NCBI GenBank assembly: GCA_021805735.1
Contig: JAJZEE010000019.1
Span: forward strand, 1 to 47,622
Length of the DNA: 47,622 bases
Source of the DNA: Bacillota bacterium
Lineage (GTDB): Bacteria; Bacillota; Bacilli; Alicyclobacillales; SLC66
Direction: 5' to 3'
The translations under genes and the position numbers were made by a program. The notes below the pieces were generated by a model. That model was not told the DNA's origin. It searched no databases and saw nothing but the letters and a program-made list of their open reading frames with translations. Shown in pieces: positions 17,894 through 25,871 of this stretch; position 1 is the first letter of the stretch; each line of letters opens with the position of its first letter.

Positions 17894-18820
17894 TTATTGC
17901 CATGTGATCTTTCCAACCTCGGATTGAAGATCTGCACGAGTGGCCTGGACGTAAATCATCGTTGTATCCAAACTGTCATGTCCCATAATTTGCGCCAGAC
18001 GGTGTAGCGGCGTGTTCTCCGCCATGACATATCCGAACCGATGTCGTAGATCGTGAGCGCTCAAACCTTCCAGCCGCGCCGCTTTCGCGTACTTTTGAAT
18101 CAAATGGCGTATGGCTCGTTCGGTCAGTCGATCGCCTGTTTTCGCTGAAGGAAACAGATAGGAACGACCTGGACGGAGAAGTGCCAGATATTTTTCCAAA
18201 GCCGATCGGCACGTTGCATTCAAAGGAACTTCTCGCTGTTTATTGCGTTTTCCGGACCGAACCGTAAGCTGGCCACTCCGTTTCCCGAGTTGGATGTCGT
18301 CGATAGTCAAGTTGCATATCTCCATCGTTCGAAGACCGGTATGCAGCATTACAATCAAGATCGTTTGATCGCGAACAGACCCGACATGCTCAGCAGTCGC
18401 GATCAATGCAACTTCTTCTTTATCTGTGATGTTTCGAGGGCTGACCCTTTCTTCTGGAACTAATTTCACCGGTTTGGAAGGATCGCGGTGAATCTTGGAT
18501 TCCAATACAGCCCACCCAAAGAACCGTTTGAGGGTAAGTACTCGTCGGTTGATAGTCGCCGGTTTCAATTCCATCATCTTTTGCGCGGCTTCTCGATATC
18601 GTGTTAACGTTGGGGCAGTTATGTCTTCGATTCGAAAAATAATTGGTTCTTCTTGGTGACCCGTTCTCTCAAACCAACCGATAAAATGTTTCAGGTCGCT
18701 GGCGTATTCCCTCAGCGTTTTGGGATTCAAATCTTCATGGGTTGCGAGAGCATGAATGAAGTCCTGAATCGTCTGTTCACCCTGTTCCGAAATCCTGATC
18801 GTCTCCTTCAAAGTCACCAC
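17894..18820 (-). CDS. tyrosine recombinase/integrase
   Basis: The 308-residue protein has the two-domain XerC/D-like layout: a SAM-like N-terminal core-binding domain (about 15-105) and a catalytic domain. All catalytic residues are visible: Arg164 (HTGLRTMEI), Lys191, His266 and Arg269 (SAHDLRHRF), His291 (MGHDSLDTT) and the nucleophile Tyr300 (MIYVQAT). It should be able to recombine DNA. Base use is less GC-rich than in the flanking housekeeping genes, consistent with transfer. It is not the housekeeping XerC/XerD by context, lying among toxin-antitoxin genes. Two direct repeats just upstream (18838, 18873) could be its binding sites. Confidence 0.93.
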   Translation of the reverse strand: MVTLKETIRISEQGEQTIQDFIHALATHEDLNPKTLREYASDLKHFIGWFERTGHQEEPIIFRIEDITAPTLTRYREAAQKMMELKPATINRRVLTLKRFFGWAVLESKIHRDPSKPVKLVPEERVSPRNITDKEEVALIATAEHVGSVRDQTILIVMLHTGLRTMEICNLTIDDIQLGKRSGQLTVRSGKRNKQREVPLNATCRSALEKYLALLRPGRSYLFPSAKTGDRLTERAIRHLIQKYAKAARLEGLSAHDLRHRFGYVMAENTPLHRLAQIMGHDSLDTTMIYVQATRADLQSEVGKITWQ

Positions 18821-18837
18821 CCAATCCTTGACTTACC

Positions 18838-18897
18838 TTAGCGGACATGATAGTTTGATCTTAAACGAAACATTAGCGGACATCAAGCGTACGTTTA
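18838..18897. repeat. direct repeats between integrase and antitoxin, possible recombination site
   Basis: TTAGCGGACAT occurs at 18838-18848 and again at 18873-18883, a spacing of 35 bp. An imperfect inverted pair TAAACG (18862-18867) and CGTTTA (18892-18897) surrounds the second copy. The block sits in the gap between the divergent recombinase and antitoxin genes, so it could be recombinase arm/core sites or an antitoxin operator. Confidence 0.55.
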
Positions 18898-18953
18898 GAA
18901 CATGCCTTATGACCGCCATTGTGAATTGGACGCCAGGGAACGGAGGGATAGTG

Positions 18954-19208
18954 ATGGTGGTACGAAAGGAAGACCTTCATCATTTGGTCGATCAACTTCC
19001 TGAACAAGCTCAAAATACGGCGTTTGATTTTCTTCAGTATCTCGTCGCTCGATCGGATCGTCAGTTAACCTGGGATGAGATCGATCAGTTAGAACCGGAT
19101 GACGAACCCCTTTCGGAAGATGCACTTCGTCAACTCAACAGTGACTCGGGGTACGTGTCAGGGGAGGAAGCGAAACGTGAGTTCAGGTTACCAATTGACT
19201 TACCATAG
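18954..19208 (+). CDS. RelB-like antitoxin
   Basis: An 84-residue acidic protein (MVVRKEDLHHLVDQLPEQAQ start; EPDDEPLSEDALRQLNSDS near the end) placed directly before and overlapping a RelE-type toxin gene by 32 bp, the usual antitoxin-first order. The N-terminal half resembles the helical dimerisation region of small antitoxins that end in WDEI-type acidic tails. GGAGGGAT before ATG 18954 supports the start; a longer frame from 18828 passes through the direct repeats and is less likely. The acidic tail would neutralise the basic toxin. Confidence 0.8.
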   Translation: MVVRKEDLHHLVDQLPEQAQNTAFDFLQYLVARSDRQLTWDEIDQLEPDDEPLSEDALRQLNSDSGYVSGEEAKREFRLPIDLP

Positions 19209-19440
19209 AGAGGCAATTAAATTTCTGTCCAAGCAAGAAAAAGCGATTCAAGAGCGCATCGCGGCTGGTTTGAAGGGGCTCACTGAGTTCCCTCCAAGAG
19301 GGGATATTAAAAAGCTAAAGGGCTATGATCATGCGCACCGACTTCGAGTAGGTTCGTTTCGCGTCGTGTTCGAAGTTTCTCATTCAGAGAAGATCGTTTA
19401 CATACAGGCTATCGATTCCCGTGGCGGCATGTACAAGTGA
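19177..19440 (+). CDS. RelE/ParE-family toxin
   Basis: The 87-residue basic protein starts at GTG 19177, eight bases after GGGGAGGAAG. It reads SSGYQLTYHREAIKFLSKQE, then IQERIAAGLKGLTEFPPRGD, LKGYDHAHRLRVGSFRVVFE and ends with IDSRGGMYK. The order of beta strand, two helices, and the RLRVGSFRVVFEV strands is that of RelE-type ribosome-dependent mRNA interferases; the Arg in GSFRV and the C-terminal RGGMYK are typical. Translation is coupled to the antitoxin by the overlap. Its end overlaps the decayed MazF-like frame on the other strand. Confidence 0.9.
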   Translation: MSSGYQLTYHREAIKFLSKQEKAIQERIAAGLKGLTEFPPRGDIKKLKGYDHAHRLRVGSFRVVFEVSHSEKIVYIQAIDSRGGMYK

Positions 19441-19938: not shown

Positions 19939-19967
19939 TTGACTGAATAGAGAGATTCGGATAGACT
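19939..19967 (+). promoter_or_regulatory. promoter of the chromate-type operon
   Basis: TTGACT (19939-19944) and TAGACT (19962-19967) are 17 bp apart, placing the transcript start at about 19974, inside the palindrome at 19973-19988 and about 35 bp before the first gene. Confidence 0.6.
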
Positions 19968-19972
19968 CATAG

Positions 19973-19988
19973 TGTAACGACTGTTACA
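19973..19988. promoter_or_regulatory. operator-like perfect palindrome
   Basis: TGTAAC-GACT-GTTACA is a perfect inverted repeat lying over the predicted transcript start, where a bound repressor would block RNA polymerase. The ChrB N-domain protein encoded in the same operon is a candidate ligand-sensing repressor (inference). Confidence 0.6.
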
Positions 19989-20008
19989 ATATGCGAGGAG
20001 GCCGACAA

Positions 20009-20458
20009 ATGAAGTGGATTACGCGGGAAAATGCCAACGTGGACCGGGTGGCGTGCCCCTGGTTGATCAGACGGTTCATCGATCCGGAGGCGGAGATTCT
20101 TTACGTTCCGTCCGGTCAGGTGCAGGAAGTCGCCACGCAGGAGGGCGCCATTCCCTTTGATGTTCCGGGCGTGGAATTGGGGCATGTGGATGGCCGCTGC
20201 TCGTTTGAATCGATCATGCTCAAATACGGGTTGACCGGCATTCCCGCACTGGCGGAGCTGGCAAAAGTTGTTCACGCCGCCGACGTGCAGTCGGACATCG
20301 ATACTTCGCCGTATGGCCTGGGACTGCGGGCCATTGCGCACGGGTTCGCCTATCTGCACGGCAAGAGAGATCATCGCAAAATCGAACTGGAATCGCCGAT
20401 GTACGATGCTCTTTATGCGTACTTTCAACACGAACTCGGACAGCGGCAGGGAGGTTGA
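20009..20458 (+). CDS. stand-alone ChrB C-terminal domain protein (copy 1)
   Basis: The 149-residue protein corresponds to the C-terminal Chrome_Resist domain of ChrB (PF09828): the opening MKWITRENANVDRVACPWLI, then RRFIDPEAEILYVP, the AIPFDVPGVELGH segment and the late AIAHGFAYL helix. In full ChrB (about 300 residues) this domain follows an N-terminal regulatory domain; here it is a free protein. ChrB takes part in chromate sensing and resistance in Proteobacteria. A GAGGAGG site precedes ATG 20009. It is the first gene of a tight five-gene operon and has a paralogue at its end (23380). Confidence 0.85.
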   Translation: MKWITRENANVDRVACPWLIRRFIDPEAEILYVPSGQVQEVATQEGAIPFDVPGVELGHVDGRCSFESIMLKYGLTGIPALAELAKVVHAADVQSDIDTSPYGLGLRAIAHGFAYLHGKRDHRKIELESPMYDALYAYFQHELGQRQGG

Positions 20459-20461
20459 AGC

Positions 20462-21421
20462 ATGAGCCTGCACCGCGCGGGGTTCATCAGAATCCTGCAA
20501 AAGCTCCCGGGCGCGTTTGACCATGCGGATCTTGATCCGGACACCGGAACGGTCGTCTTGGCCAACGAAGCGCAAGGGTGTCTGGAGGTTTTGGACGGGC
20601 AGCTTCTCCGGCATGAGGTATCCATTCCTGACTGTTCTGGCGCCAGCGGGGTCTTGTATCTTCCCGAACTTCGGTCCTTCATTGGCGCCGCCCGCGCAAA
20701 GGGACGCGTCATTCTGGTGGACGCGCGCTCCTGGCAGGTGGTTCGGGAGATGCCGGTCGGCCCGCGACCGAACGGACTGGCGTGGGACGGGGGAAGAAGG
20801 CAGGTCCTCGTCGCTGACGTCAAGGATCATTCGGCGAGACTCATGGATGTTCTATCCGGTGCATCAGTAGCCGATGCAGCGCTCCCTGGGAGACCGAGGT
20901 GGTGCTTGTACGATAACGCCCGGAACCGATATTGGGTGAACATCGCCGATCCTGCCATGGTGGTGGGACTGCGGGGCGCGGATTTACAAAAGGAAGTCGA
21001 GTTCTCCGTCGATGCGGCGGGTCCGCATGGTCTCGCTCTGGACGAGACGACCGCGCGACTGCTGGTCGCTTGCGACGCAGGGCGTCTGCTCGCGCTTGAA
21101 CGGGATACCGGTCGCGTCGTTGGTGAATGCGCTCTGGCTGGTCCGCCGGATGTCGTATGGCTAAACGCTCAAAGAAGACGATTGTATGTCGCGATTGGCG
21201 AACCGGGATGTGTGCAGGCGGTCGACCTGGATACATACGATATTGTCGAGGAGATTGTGACCGAACAGGGAGCCCATACCCTTGCATTTGATGACAGGCG
21301 GCAACTGCTGTACGTATTTCTGCCGAAAACCGGTCAGGCGGCCGTATACGAAGAGACGGATGAACGAAATAGATCGCACGAAATAGACCGCATGATGGAC
21401 GAAGGCGGCGCGTGGCGGTGA
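20462..21421 (+). CDS. YncE/YVTN-type beta-propeller protein, cytoplasmic
   Basis: A 319-residue protein made of repeated blade-like units, each containing a variant of G-x-x-L-D-x-x-x-x-x-L-x-V-A-D/N followed by a short hydrophobic strand (for example GLAWDGGRRQVLVADVKDHS, GLALDETTARLLVACDAG, TLAFDDRRQLLYVFLPKTG). This is the pattern of YVTN/YncE propellers. There is no signal peptide, unlike many propellers of this group, so it probably acts inside the cell. It starts 3 bp after the ChrB-C gene, so the two are translationally linked. Propellers often bind small molecules or partner proteins; the ligand here is unknown. Confidence 0.8.
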   Translation: MSLHRAGFIRILQKLPGAFDHADLDPDTGTVVLANEAQGCLEVLDGQLLRHEVSIPDCSGASGVLYLPELRSFIGAARAKGRVILVDARSWQVVREMPVGPRPNGLAWDGGRRQVLVADVKDHSARLMDVLSGASVADAALPGRPRWCLYDNARNRYWVNIADPAMVVGLRGADLQKEVEFSVDAAGPHGLALDETTARLLVACDAGRLLALERDTGRVVGECALAGPPDVVWLNAQRRRLYVAIGEPGCVQAVDLDTYDIVEEIVTEQGAHTLAFDDRRQLLYVFLPKTGQAAVYEETDERNRSHEIDRMMDEGGAWR

Positions 21422-21474
21422 ACACCCGCGCCCCTGTGGCGTGAAAAGCAAACGAGAAATGAGGAGGATTCTTT

Positions 21475-22857
21475 GTGTTGCAGGCGGCAAGTGCTGAGAG
21501 AGGCGCGGCGGGAGGCAAAGCGGGCAACAGCGCGAGGGCTGCGGGATTGTTGTTGGCGGCTCGCGCCGTGCGGGAAACGGCCTTTGGCTGGATTTCCATC
21601 GCCCTGCCGATCTTCTGGAGAACCAGAGGGCTGTCAGCGGCTGAGATCGGAACGTTATACTCGATCGCATTGCTCGGCTCCTTTGCGCTCACCGTGTTGT
21701 TTCGCCGAGTCTCAGATCGACGGGGCTACCGGACCGCACTGTTGGCGAGCAGCGGACTGTGGGCCGCGATGGTTCCGATTCTCTTATTCACCCGCAATCC
21801 CCTGTGGCTCGGCCTTGCGGTGGCTTTGGGTTCGGTGAGTCCCACAGGCAAGGAGGTCGGGCCTTATCTATCCGTCGAACAAACTCTGTTGGCGGTGATG
21901 TATGGAGGTCAAAAACGGCTGCGTGCATACACTTGGTTTAATTTCATTGGCTACGCGAGCGGTTCAGCAGGGGCGCTGCTCGTCGGCGCGCTTGGATGGA
22001 GCATGGGATTTGGGGCGTACCGCGCCCTGCTTTGGGGGTACATGGCTGCGGGGCTGATTCAAGGGATACTCTATACCCGGTTGCCTCGCGGCGCAGGGCG
22101 GCAGGTCGGAAGCGGGTCGGGCGCCGCTTCGCCTCAAAATGCGTTGGACCACAACGAATCGGCGGACGTGGGGAAACCGACGGGCGAAGGGGAGTCGGTG
22201 GACGATAGGAACGAGTCAGCAGGGCGCCCCCCGACAAGCCAGCCTGCGGCGGACCTGTCCACGGCAGGCCAGTCCTCAGACGGCAGGCGCCGGATATACG
22301 CGCTGTCTGCGCTCTTCGCGCTCGACGCGTTTGGCAGTGGATTCATCGTGCAGAGTTTGCTGGCCTTCTGGTTTTATGAACGTTTTCACTTTGATTTGTC
22401 CCAATTGGGCCTGCTGTTCTTTGGCACCAATGTGCTGTCGGCGCTGTCGTCGTTTGGGGCCGCATGGCTCGGGGAACGCATCGGCCTGCTGAACACGATG
22501 GTCTTTACGCATGTTCCGTCCAATGTGTTTCTTTGCCTGATCCCGCTCATGCCCACCCCTTCGCTTGCTGTGGTCCTGTTGCTGTTGCGCCATGTCCTGT
22601 CGCAAATGGACGTTCCCACGCGCCAGGCGTACACAATGGCCTTGGTTGCGCCGTCTGACCGTGTCTTTGCGGCCACCTGGACCAATGGCGCGCGAAACAT
22701 CGGTTCGGCCTTGACGCCGGCGCTTGCGGGTGTGCTGTTGACGTTCGCTGCGGCAGGTTGGCCTTTTTATTTGGCGGGGGCGTTAAAGATCGGGTATGAT
22801 CTGCTTACATATCAAAGTTTTCGCCGCGTGCCGCTGCGGTTCGCGGAACATCGGTGA
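21475..22857 (+). CDS. major facilitator superfamily transporter
   Basis: The 460-residue protein has about twelve hydrophobic helices in two halves separated by a long polar loop (about 200-275) rich in Gly, Ser, Asp and Glu, with no homology I can name. The loop 2-3 motif appears as FRRVSDRRGYRTALL, a variant of the G-x-x-x-D-R-x-G-R-R signature. GTG 21475 follows GAGGAGG at good spacing. In place of the usual ChrA chromate pump, this carrier is the only transporter of the operon, so export of chromate or another oxyanion is a reasonable inference, not a demonstrated function. Confidence 0.9.
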   Translation: MLQAASAERGAAGGKAGNSARAAGLLLAARAVRETAFGWISIALPIFWRTRGLSAAEIGTLYSIALLGSFALTVLFRRVSDRRGYRTALLASSGLWAAMVPILLFTRNPLWLGLAVALGSVSPTGKEVGPYLSVEQTLLAVMYGGQKRLRAYTWFNFIGYASGSAGALLVGALGWSMGFGAYRALLWGYMAAGLIQGILYTRLPRGAGRQVGSGSGAASPQNALDHNESADVGKPTGEGESVDDRNESAGRPPTSQPAADLSTAGQSSDGRRRIYALSALFALDAFGSGFIVQSLLAFWFYERFHFDLSQLGLLFFGTNVLSALSSFGAAWLGERIGLLNTMVFTHVPSNVFLCLIPLMPTPSLAVVLLLLRHVLSQMDVPTRQAYTMALVAPSDRVFAATWTNGARNIGSALTPALAGVLLTFAAAGWPFYLAGALKIGYDLLTYQSFRRVPLRFAEHR

Positions 22858-22872
22858 GGATGGCGAACGACC

Positions 22873-23379
22873 ATGGATGGCGCGGTGTCTTCTTTTTCCT
22901 GGTTACTGTTGATCTATAGTTTGCCGACGCATCCAAGCAACAAACGGGTGTACGTGTGGCGCAAATTGAAGCAACTTGGCGTCGTGTATCTGGTGGATTC
23001 GGTCAGCGCCCTGCCCTACACGGAACGTCATCGCGAACATCTGCAATGGATCGCTGCGGAAATCGTGGAGATGGGCGGTGCGGCGACGTATTGGCAGGCA
23101 AATTCCCTCGGACCGCAGCAAGATACCCAGTTGCGGCGACAATTTGAGGATCAGGCGACGGAACGGTACACGAGTATCACGGAGGCCTTGGATCGATGGG
23201 AGGCCGCAGCGTATCCCCCGCCCGGCGATGCGGAGGATACGCTGCGACGATTGACGATGGAGTATCGACAGGTGTATGCGCAAGATTTTTTTCATTCGGC
23301 AACCGGAGCATCCGTGCGCGACCGACTGGAACGTCTGCTTTGCGCACGGTTTGTCGAAGGGGGAGAGGAAGAAGCGTAA
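22873..23379 (+). CDS. stand-alone ChrB N-terminal domain protein
   Basis: The 168-residue protein matches the N-terminal regulatory domain of ChrB (PF20229): WLLLIYSLPTHPSNKRVYVW, then RKLKQLGVVYLVDSVSALP, an AAEIVEMGGAATYW segment and a charged helical tail. In full-length ChrB this part is thought to be a DNA-binding, chromate-responsive domain. Here it is encoded separately from its C-terminal partner, which follows immediately (TAA then ATG 23380 with no gap). It is therefore the candidate regulator of the palindrome at 19973. Confidence 0.85.
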   Translation: MDGAVSSFSWLLLIYSLPTHPSNKRVYVWRKLKQLGVVYLVDSVSALPYTERHREHLQWIAAEIVEMGGAATYWQANSLGPQQDTQLRRQFEDQATERYTSITEALDRWEAAAYPPPGDAEDTLRRLTMEYRQVYAQDFFHSATGASVRDRLERLLCARFVEGGEEEA

Positions 23380-23802
23380 ATGAAATGGGTGACCTGGCAA
23401 CGAGTCGGGATTGACCGAATGGCTTGCGCTTGGCTGATTTGGAAGTACATTGACGCGCATGCTGAATTTCATTTTCTTCCCTCCGGTCAGACGGTGGAGG
23501 AAGAGCCGGACGCGATTCCGTTTGACATTCCTGGAGTGCGGCTGAGTCATCACCGCGGAAGGTGTAGTCTTGCGGCCTTTTTAAAGGAATACGGGTTGAC
23601 GGATCCGGTTCTGTCTCAAATCGCTCGCATTGTCGACGGCGCCGACTGCATCACCACCGTGATTCCACCCTCCGAATCCGAAGGCGTGGAGGCGATTTGT
23701 CAAGGAATCCGGTCGTTGGCGAAAGATGATCTGGAGGCCCTGAAGCAGGCCCAAGTGGTATTTGACGCCTTGTATGTTCATCTGAAGGCGGGAACCGCCT
23801 GA
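23380..23802 (+). CDS. stand-alone ChrB C-terminal domain protein (copy 2)
   Basis: A 140-residue Chrome_Resist domain protein, paralogous to the first gene of the operon: MKWVTWQRVGIDRMACAWLI, then the AIPFDIPGVRLSHHRGRCSL segment and QIARIVDGADC. It begins directly after the stop of the ChrB-N gene, as if an ancestral fused chrB had been split by a stop codon. The two copies differ clearly in sequence, so they are old paralogues rather than a recent duplication. It closes the operon. Confidence 0.85.
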   Translation: MKWVTWQRVGIDRMACAWLIWKYIDAHAEFHFLPSGQTVEEEPDAIPFDIPGVRLSHHRGRCSLAAFLKEYGLTDPVLSQIARIVDGADCITTVIPPSESEGVEAICQGIRSLAKDDLEALKQAQVVFDALYVHLKAGTA

Positions 23803-25185: not shown

Positions 25186-25614
25186 TCACGGACCCAAGGG
25201 AGTTGCCTTCATCGGATCGAACGAAGGCGAGTACAGACGAAGTATATCGGAGTCAAAGCTTACGATGGATTCTCCGCCCCCAGTTTGGGCTCGCGCCATC
25301 AGATACGCATCGGCAAAATCGAGACGATGCTTTTCAAAGAGATGCAGTGCGTTTAGAAGAATCGGAAGTTCATCCGATTCGATTCCCTCCACCAATAAAA
25401 AGTCTTTCAAAACGCATGCTATGTCGCTGTGGTTGAAAGAATATATCTTTCCTCTCAGGACATAACAACATTCAGCGAGGACAACTGCGGCCACCTTGAA
25501 TCGAATACTCCCCGCCTGCTGGATCAAGGTCGCAGCCGCAGGCGACATCTCCGGGTGATCGTTGAGAAGGAAACGCAAAAGGACATTCGTATCGAGCCAA
25601 TGGGTCGAACTCAT
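25186..25614 (-). CDS. PIN-domain toxin (VapC-like)
   Basis: The 142-residue protein has the PIN ribonuclease layout: WLDTNVLLRFLLNDH with Asp8, the Glu48 of VVLAECCYVL, the LDFADAYLMA helix with Asp99 and Asp102, and FDSDILR with Asp121/Asp123 near the C-terminus. These acidic residues bind the catalytic metal. It overlaps the antitoxin gene by 4 bp (ATGA), so the two are translationally coupled. Targets are unknown; VapC proteins usually cut tRNA or rRNA. Confidence 0.9.
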   Translation of the reverse strand: MSSTHWLDTNVLLRFLLNDHPEMSPAAATLIQQAGSIRFKVAAVVLAECCYVLRGKIYSFNHSDIACVLKDFLLVEGIESDELPILLNALHLFEKHRLDFADAYLMARAQTGGGESIVSFDSDILRLYSPSFDPMKATPLGP

Positions 25615-25871
25615 AACCGCTCCGCTAATTCGTCCTGGATAGCCTTGCGCGCTTCGGTCAGTGAAATGTAGCGCAGTCCTTCGCGATGCAAAGCGCCAAA
25701 CAGTTCGTGCGGCGACCTTTGTTTCGCCAATTGAACCCGGATGGATCCTGTATCGTCCATATGGAAAAGAACATGATCGCCCACTTCTGCGCCTAATGCG
25801 CGGCGGATCTCGGCAGGCAATGTCAGTTGATGTTTGCTTGTGAGTTTCGCGATCGCTGTCACACTACTCAT
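25611..25871 (-). CDS. AbrB-type antitoxin
   Basis: The 86-residue protein has an N-terminal swapped-hairpin DNA-binding fold (AIAKLTSKHQLTLPAEIRRA LGAEVGDHVLF segment) of the AbrB/SpoVT group and a C-terminal helical, charged toxin-binding tail. It precedes the PIN toxin gene in the usual antitoxin-first order. An in-frame GTG three codons later (25862) has better spacing to the AAGGGG site than the ATG at 25871; either start keeps the domain intact. It likely represses its own promoter. Confidence 0.88.
   Translation of the reverse strand: MSSVTAIAKLTSKHQLTLPAEIRRALGAEVGDHVLFHMDDTGSIRVQLAKQRSPHELFGALHREGLRYISLTEARKAIQDELAERL

Follow-up and report, generated by a model that had tools for sequence, protein, structure and literature searches.

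The locus analysed here raises the question of how a chromate-type operon might work when its regulator ChrB is encoded as separate halves and its only transporter is an MFS protein instead of ChrA. The window, by which we mean the whole stretch of 47,622 nucleotides that was analysed, has five ORFs of this operon in its ORF list, all on the plus strand, for a ChrB_C domain (C1), a propeller, an MFS transporter, ChrB_N and a second ChrB_C domain (C2). They are separated, in operon order, by 3, 53, 15 and 0 bp, and ChrB_N and C2 abut as TAA-ATG at 23377-23382. Pfam found PF09828 on the two ChrB_C genes (9.7e-43 and 4.8e-44), MFS_1 on the transporter gene (7.6e-24) and PF20229 on the ChrB_N gene (2.8e-12, over cut-off), so that PF20229 and PF09828 both exceed their curated cut-offs on two adjacent genes. 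ORFs and Pfam thus agree with the original prediction of five tightly packed genes in this order. The C1 ORF is listed as 19991-20458, but its start is probably the ATG at 20009, since the starts of relatives match there and a ribosome site is present. The features are collected in Table 1.

Table 1. Features of the split-ChrB operon, in window positions.
Feature	Position	Strand	Basis or remark
Sigma-70-like promoter, TTGACT-17-TAGACT	19939..19967	+	consensus match only
Putative split-ChrB operator, TGTAAC-GACT-GTTACA	19973..19988	n/a	just downstream of the -10 hexamer
C1, lone ChrB_C domain, ChrF type	20009..20458	+	PF09828; tree; residues
YncE-like propeller, seven-bladed, cytoplasmic; ChrK/ChrZ homologue without signal peptide	20462..21421	+	
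MFS transporter, ChrP clade, putative exporter	21475..22857	+	PF07690; clade with pMOL28 ChrP
ChrB_N, DNA-binding half of split ChrB	22873..23379	+	PF20229; residues
C2, ChrB_C half of split ChrB, Arg180 to Trp and His258 to Asp	23380..23802	+	PF09828; residues; tree

Is this arrangement more than an accident of one assembly? A close relative of the propeller was found in 5 of 101 genomes, the window's own included, at 47-100% identity, and all five (G000, G001, G002, G005 and G056) carry the whole set with identical order and orientation. These genomes belong to one order and two families, which provides the conserved co-occurrence that the original prediction had proposed as a check; the five-gene operon is real and conserved beyond chance. 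ChrB_C occurs in 6 of the 59 genomes of the order, five of them with the module and the sixth (G045) with an N-C pair only. The domain is rare in the phylum sample (6 of 398 genomes over cut-off) and common in Chloroflexota (52/251), the phylum of G494, a genome represented by a Ktedonobacteria contig, and in Pseudomonadota (60/249), the phylum of G748. As ChrB is fused in Pseudomonadota such as CH34, one might suppose that a sequencing or assembly error had broken a fused gene here, or that the gene order is unique to the strain. The same split, however, recurs in five genomes that were assembled separately and in about twenty loci of other contexts, including Chloroflexota and Arthrobacter FB24, making this explanation extremely improbable; a frame error in a fused ChrB is ruled out by the conserved split, and order and split alike are shared by the five genomes. 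The ChrB halves are therefore, as predicted, separate genes and not one polypeptide, a separation that relatives keep. The accompanying statement that ChrB is a single protein in described operons was mistaken, since FB24 has split chrB genes (PMC2751784) and the described family thus already includes split forms.

The surroundings of the operon were also inspected. A tyrosine recombinase gene on the minus strand and a ParE-like toxin gene lie just upstream (window 17894-19440) in a stretch of lower G+C, and the operon may for that reason occupy a variable site. On its other side, a PIN-domain protein and a small partner, judged by eye to be AbrB-like, are encoded on the minus strand (window 25186-25871) and likely form a toxin-antitoxin pair. 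Downstream HIT and TauE/SafE genes were considered as operon members and rejected: a TauE relative follows the operon in G001, and none was found in the regions covered for G002, G005 and G056.

Could the two halves still act as a ChrB repressor? In O. tritici ChrB, Arg18 and Arg23 are needed for DNA binding and Arg180, Arg187 and His229 are essential for the chromate response (PMC3817168); partial ChrB was not functional there, neither half having been supplied with the other. We transferred the O. tritici numbering through the motif spacing around DRxAC, with the identity of His229 with the conserved His of CH34 ChrB1 as a check. The equivalents of Arg18 and Arg23 are present in ChrB_N of the window and in nearly all relatives. 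C1 retains all of Arg180, Arg187 and His229, whereas C2 keeps Arg187 and His229 and has Trp in place of Arg180 and Asp at the His258 position. Arg187 and His229 are indeed kept in all rows, and Arg180 in C1 and in every ChrF and fused-ChrB row of the sample, while the 15 rows with Trp at this position are all split ChrB. In a tree built without the two trait columns, C2 falls into a separate split-ChrB clade (SH-aLRT 96; Bacillota and Chloroflexota) in which 15 of 16 rows have Trp and all 16 have Asp. We thus find that the ChrB_C domain partnered by ChrB_N belongs, by its residues and the tree, to a Bacillota/Chloroflexota clade marked by Arg180 to Trp and His258 to Asp, which has not been part of the picture before. 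C1 groups with ChrF-type domains, and being a ChrB_C that stands alone in a chr-type cluster and keeps the conserved residues, it classifies as ChrF. The original prediction of a paralogous C-domain leading the operon was right in that a ChrB_C domain leads it, but C1 is of ChrF type and a recent C1/C2 duplication is rejected, since the tree places the two in separate groups.

The changed residue in C2 is the reason why we file the pair as a split ChrB-like regulator and not as a proven chromate sensor: without the Arg180 that is essential in O. tritici, it may sense something other than chromate. The operon might handle another oxyanion or toxic compound, the C2 pocket having been rebuilt and ChrA replaced by an MFS as the ligand changed. 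The clade defined by the Trp/Asp exchange and the essential role of Arg180 (PMC3817168) favour this, as do the many Bacillota in which ChrB_N stands without ChrB_C beside a different MFS clade, so that ChrB_N itself is not tied to chromate. Members of the Trp/Asp clade, however, also occur with ChrA (L132, L134 and L155), Arg187 and His229 are kept throughout and C1 has all three essential residues, and we regard the alternative as unlikely. Alternatively, sensing may be divided, N and C2 forming a DNA-binding scaffold, with C1 as a trans-acting sensing subunit and the propeller possibly serving as a platform. This would account for the three residues being intact in C1 and not in C2, and for C1 and C2 sharing an operon in each of the five genomes; yet many clusters have ChrF-type domains and no ChrB_N at all, so that ChrF has an independent role, and we think divided sensing improbable. 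Our preferred reading remains that ChrB_N and C2 are two halves of one repressor.

No sequence relatives of known structure were found for ChrB_N or ChrB_C. The C1 model (pLDDT 94) had no significant Foldseek match in the PDB (E > 0.2) and no sequence match either, but VIA-align gave 6mtz as its best match (Z 11.7 over 138 residues, 3.6 A), followed by PAP phosphatase, RecJ and Cdc45 at Z 5-7, mostly RecJ/Cdc45/DHH-type. The likeness of ChrB_C to DHH/RecJ phosphoesterase domains, seen in VIA only, is a lead only.

The strongest new evidence for split ChrB as a working repressor comes from the promoter region, in the form of a putative operator that the original prediction had not noted. The promoter itself is a consensus match only, as promoter-like sites are about equally frequent in shuffles of the region; that of relatives L026 and L027, TTGACA-17-TAGAAT, is nearer consensus. 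The palindrome TGTAAC-N4-GTTACA is the sole match in the window with one mismatch allowed (0.01 expected), and the whole genome has one exact copy. Each of nine further split-ChrB genomes has exactly one copy, located at an operon of this kind, and another two genomes have two copies each, both at ChrB loci. It adjoins or touches a -10-like hexamer, or directly follows it, in most loci. Among loci fetched for ChrB_C or the propeller, 13 of the 22 that have ChrB_N as a separate gene contain the palindrome, versus 0 of 88 others, and it was not found in 1.19 Mb of sequence from loci lacking such a gene. In Bacillota, two split-ChrB loci (L070 and L128) have the variant GCAAC-N4-GTTGC instead, the split chrB of FB24 has GTAACCACGGTTAC at the equivalent position, and the fused ChrB of CH34 has a different palindrome, TGTAGA-N4-TCTACA. 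Within our sample, this candidate operator is thus tied to split-ChrB operons, and a literature search for a TGTAAC operator together with ChrB found no paper combining both among the results listed for the library searched.

Stand-alone ChrB_N genes are a separate observation. ChrB_N was present in 49 of the 398 sampled genomes of the phylum, and in the 30 loci read (L031-L060, with ChrB_N at about 1501) no ChrB_C lay beside it. The stand-alone genes often adjoin an MFS from a clade of its own, with GTAAC-N4-GTTAC motifs upstream; in other Bacillota, several are preceded by the same motif as the window operon or a near version of it. Together, stand-alone ChrB_N and this MFS could be a regulator-exporter pair of their own.

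What, then, takes the place of the pump? The original prediction that the MFS is the only transporter was upheld: PF02417 was absent from the window operon, and no full-length ChrA was found in the genome either, which has one unpaired short CHR only (G000:C121:37001-37495, L061, a lone gene that is single in relatives too). Short CHR proteins are usually paired; G000, G001, G002, G005 and G491 each have a single unpaired one and no long ChrA. That no long ChrA was found in this genome is new. A long ChrA could be missing from the data because the assembly is MAG-like and incomplete (97%), though five assemblies agree. In the tree, the window MFS shares one clade of 24 rows with pMOL28 ChrP (support 100), apart from the MFS that follows ChrF in Pseudomonadota and from that neighbouring stand-alone ChrB_N genes of other Bacillota. 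In L132, ChrA accompanies a core made up of N, C2, C1 and propeller; in L075 and L156 this core is accompanied by a ChrP-type MFS. L134 and L155 combine N, C2, C1 and ChrA without a propeller, and L137 has both exporters. The genome of L075, G494, has a long CHR too, on another contig. As the same core is found with either, ChrA and the MFS seem to be alternative occupants of a single position in the operon, although the numbers are small and, the loci having been picked for ChrB_C or the propeller, the co-occurrence tables show context and not an unbiased MFS enrichment. A second, different MFS clade was seen directly beside lone ChrB_C (ChrF) in L185-L206, L171, L172 and L175, loci of Pseudomonadota and archaea, some of them inside ChrB-ChrA-ChrF-MFS operons.

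The remaining gene gave weak signals in Pfam (NHL, 0.008) and hits to NCBIfam YncE/PQQ propeller models at 1e-9 to 2e-10, below cut-off. AlphaFold, using an alignment of 22 relatives, nevertheless predicted a propeller (pLDDT 94) with E. coli YncE as best PDB match (E 1.2e-16), and phmmer linked the module propellers to ChrK and ChrZ (2e-22 to 5e-15). The N-terminal hydropathy is 0.84 versus 2.88 and 2.84 for the ChrK/ChrZ propellers; with no signal-peptide-like start, the predicted label 'cytoplasmic' is fair. A scan of named genome contigs gave 29 propeller relatives, reaching archaea, and where ChrB_C lies near them it mostly adjoins the propeller directly. L072 has signal-bearing and signal-less propellers side by side, and in L072, L092, L093 and L151 pairs of C1 and propeller have ChrA, SOD, rhodanese or full ChrB in the same cluster. 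In archaeal MAGs (L081-L085, L180 and L181), ChrF and a cytoplasmic propeller are adjacent with no ChrA or ChrB_N nearby.

Taken together, the locus is probably a ChrA-less chromate-type (oxyanion) resistance operon repressed by split ChrB, with putative export through a ChrP-like MFS. The split repressor would bind the palindrome directly after the -10 hexamer and block transcription in the absence of an inducing anion. Once one is sensed, the operon would make its own repressor and the MFS, which would replace ChrA as the exporter of the anion; C1 and the propeller, as cytoplasmic accessories, may act together on the anion or on damage products. The sequence supplies the anatomy, its conservation, the protein families, the candidate operator with its exclusive split-ChrB link in the sample, an assembly without long ChrA and the altered C2 sensor residues; repression, chromate induction, MFS export and the C1-propeller partnership we infer. 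Chromate is the best-supported candidate, given that elsewhere these genes lie beside ChrA, SOD, rhodanese and ChrB, even though MFS proteins are very varied in their substrates. Of the original suggestion of a new oxyanion system, what stands is that it is possible, the split sensor domain having lost Arg180; gene contexts speak for chromate. A bolder and doubtful proposal is that Bacillota and Chloroflexota have a ChrA-independent class of oxyanion resistance: split ChrB, its pocket rebuilt (Trp180/Asp258), would control the ChrP-type MFS through a dedicated 16-bp operator, while a DHH-like ChrF and the cytoplasmic propeller handle inside the cell an anion that may not be chromate.

The ChrB repressor is thus seen as two genes across phyla, with a precise putative operator that is directly testable. 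Natural systems with an MFS in ChrA's place make the roles of ChrF, ChrP and the ChrK/ChrZ propellers testable, the natural Arg180 to Trp exchange opens a route to identifying the true ligand of the ChrB sensor domain, and operator and parts could serve chromate biosensors.

To conclude, we compare the operon with known systems. In FB24, described in 2009, chrB-Nterm, chrB-Cterm and chrB-Cterm2 are separate genes and are chromate-induced together with the propeller gene chrK, and constructs without parts of the chr cluster had reduced resistance (PMC2751784). The window shares with FB24 the adjacent N- and C-terminal genes, a further ChrB_C gene and the propeller (PMC2751784), as well as near-identical operator half-sites before chrB-Nterm. 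FB24 differs in its pump (ChrA and a short CHR), in a propeller with a signal sequence, in a split C domain that keeps Arg180, in the extra genes chrJ and chrL and in gene order. The pMOL28 cluster chrIBACEFONPYZ of C. metallidurans (2010) combines ChrF (a lone ChrB_C), an MFS of the same clade (ChrP) and the propeller ChrZ in one chromate-induced cluster, yet has full-length ChrB with the TGTAGA-N4-TCTACA palindrome, ChrA, SOD and rhodanese; its description notes that chr-locus variation may mean other oxyanions (PMC2864759). The N-terminus of ChrZ is signal-like, unlike that of the window propeller. TnOtChr chrBACF of O. tritici resembles the window in an N domain with DNA-binding Arg18/Arg23, a C domain with sensor residues, an operator that partly overlaps the -10 region and the presence of ChrF, and differs in fused ChrB, the ChrA pump, the presence of sensor Arg180 and another inverted repeat (PMC3817168). 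A view of the parts as undescribed does not hold: FB24 has split ChrB and ChrK, and pMOL28 has ChrF, ChrP and ChrZ. Judged by these comparisons, the operon brings known parts together in a compact form without ChrA, with a defined putative operator and a changed sensor domain.
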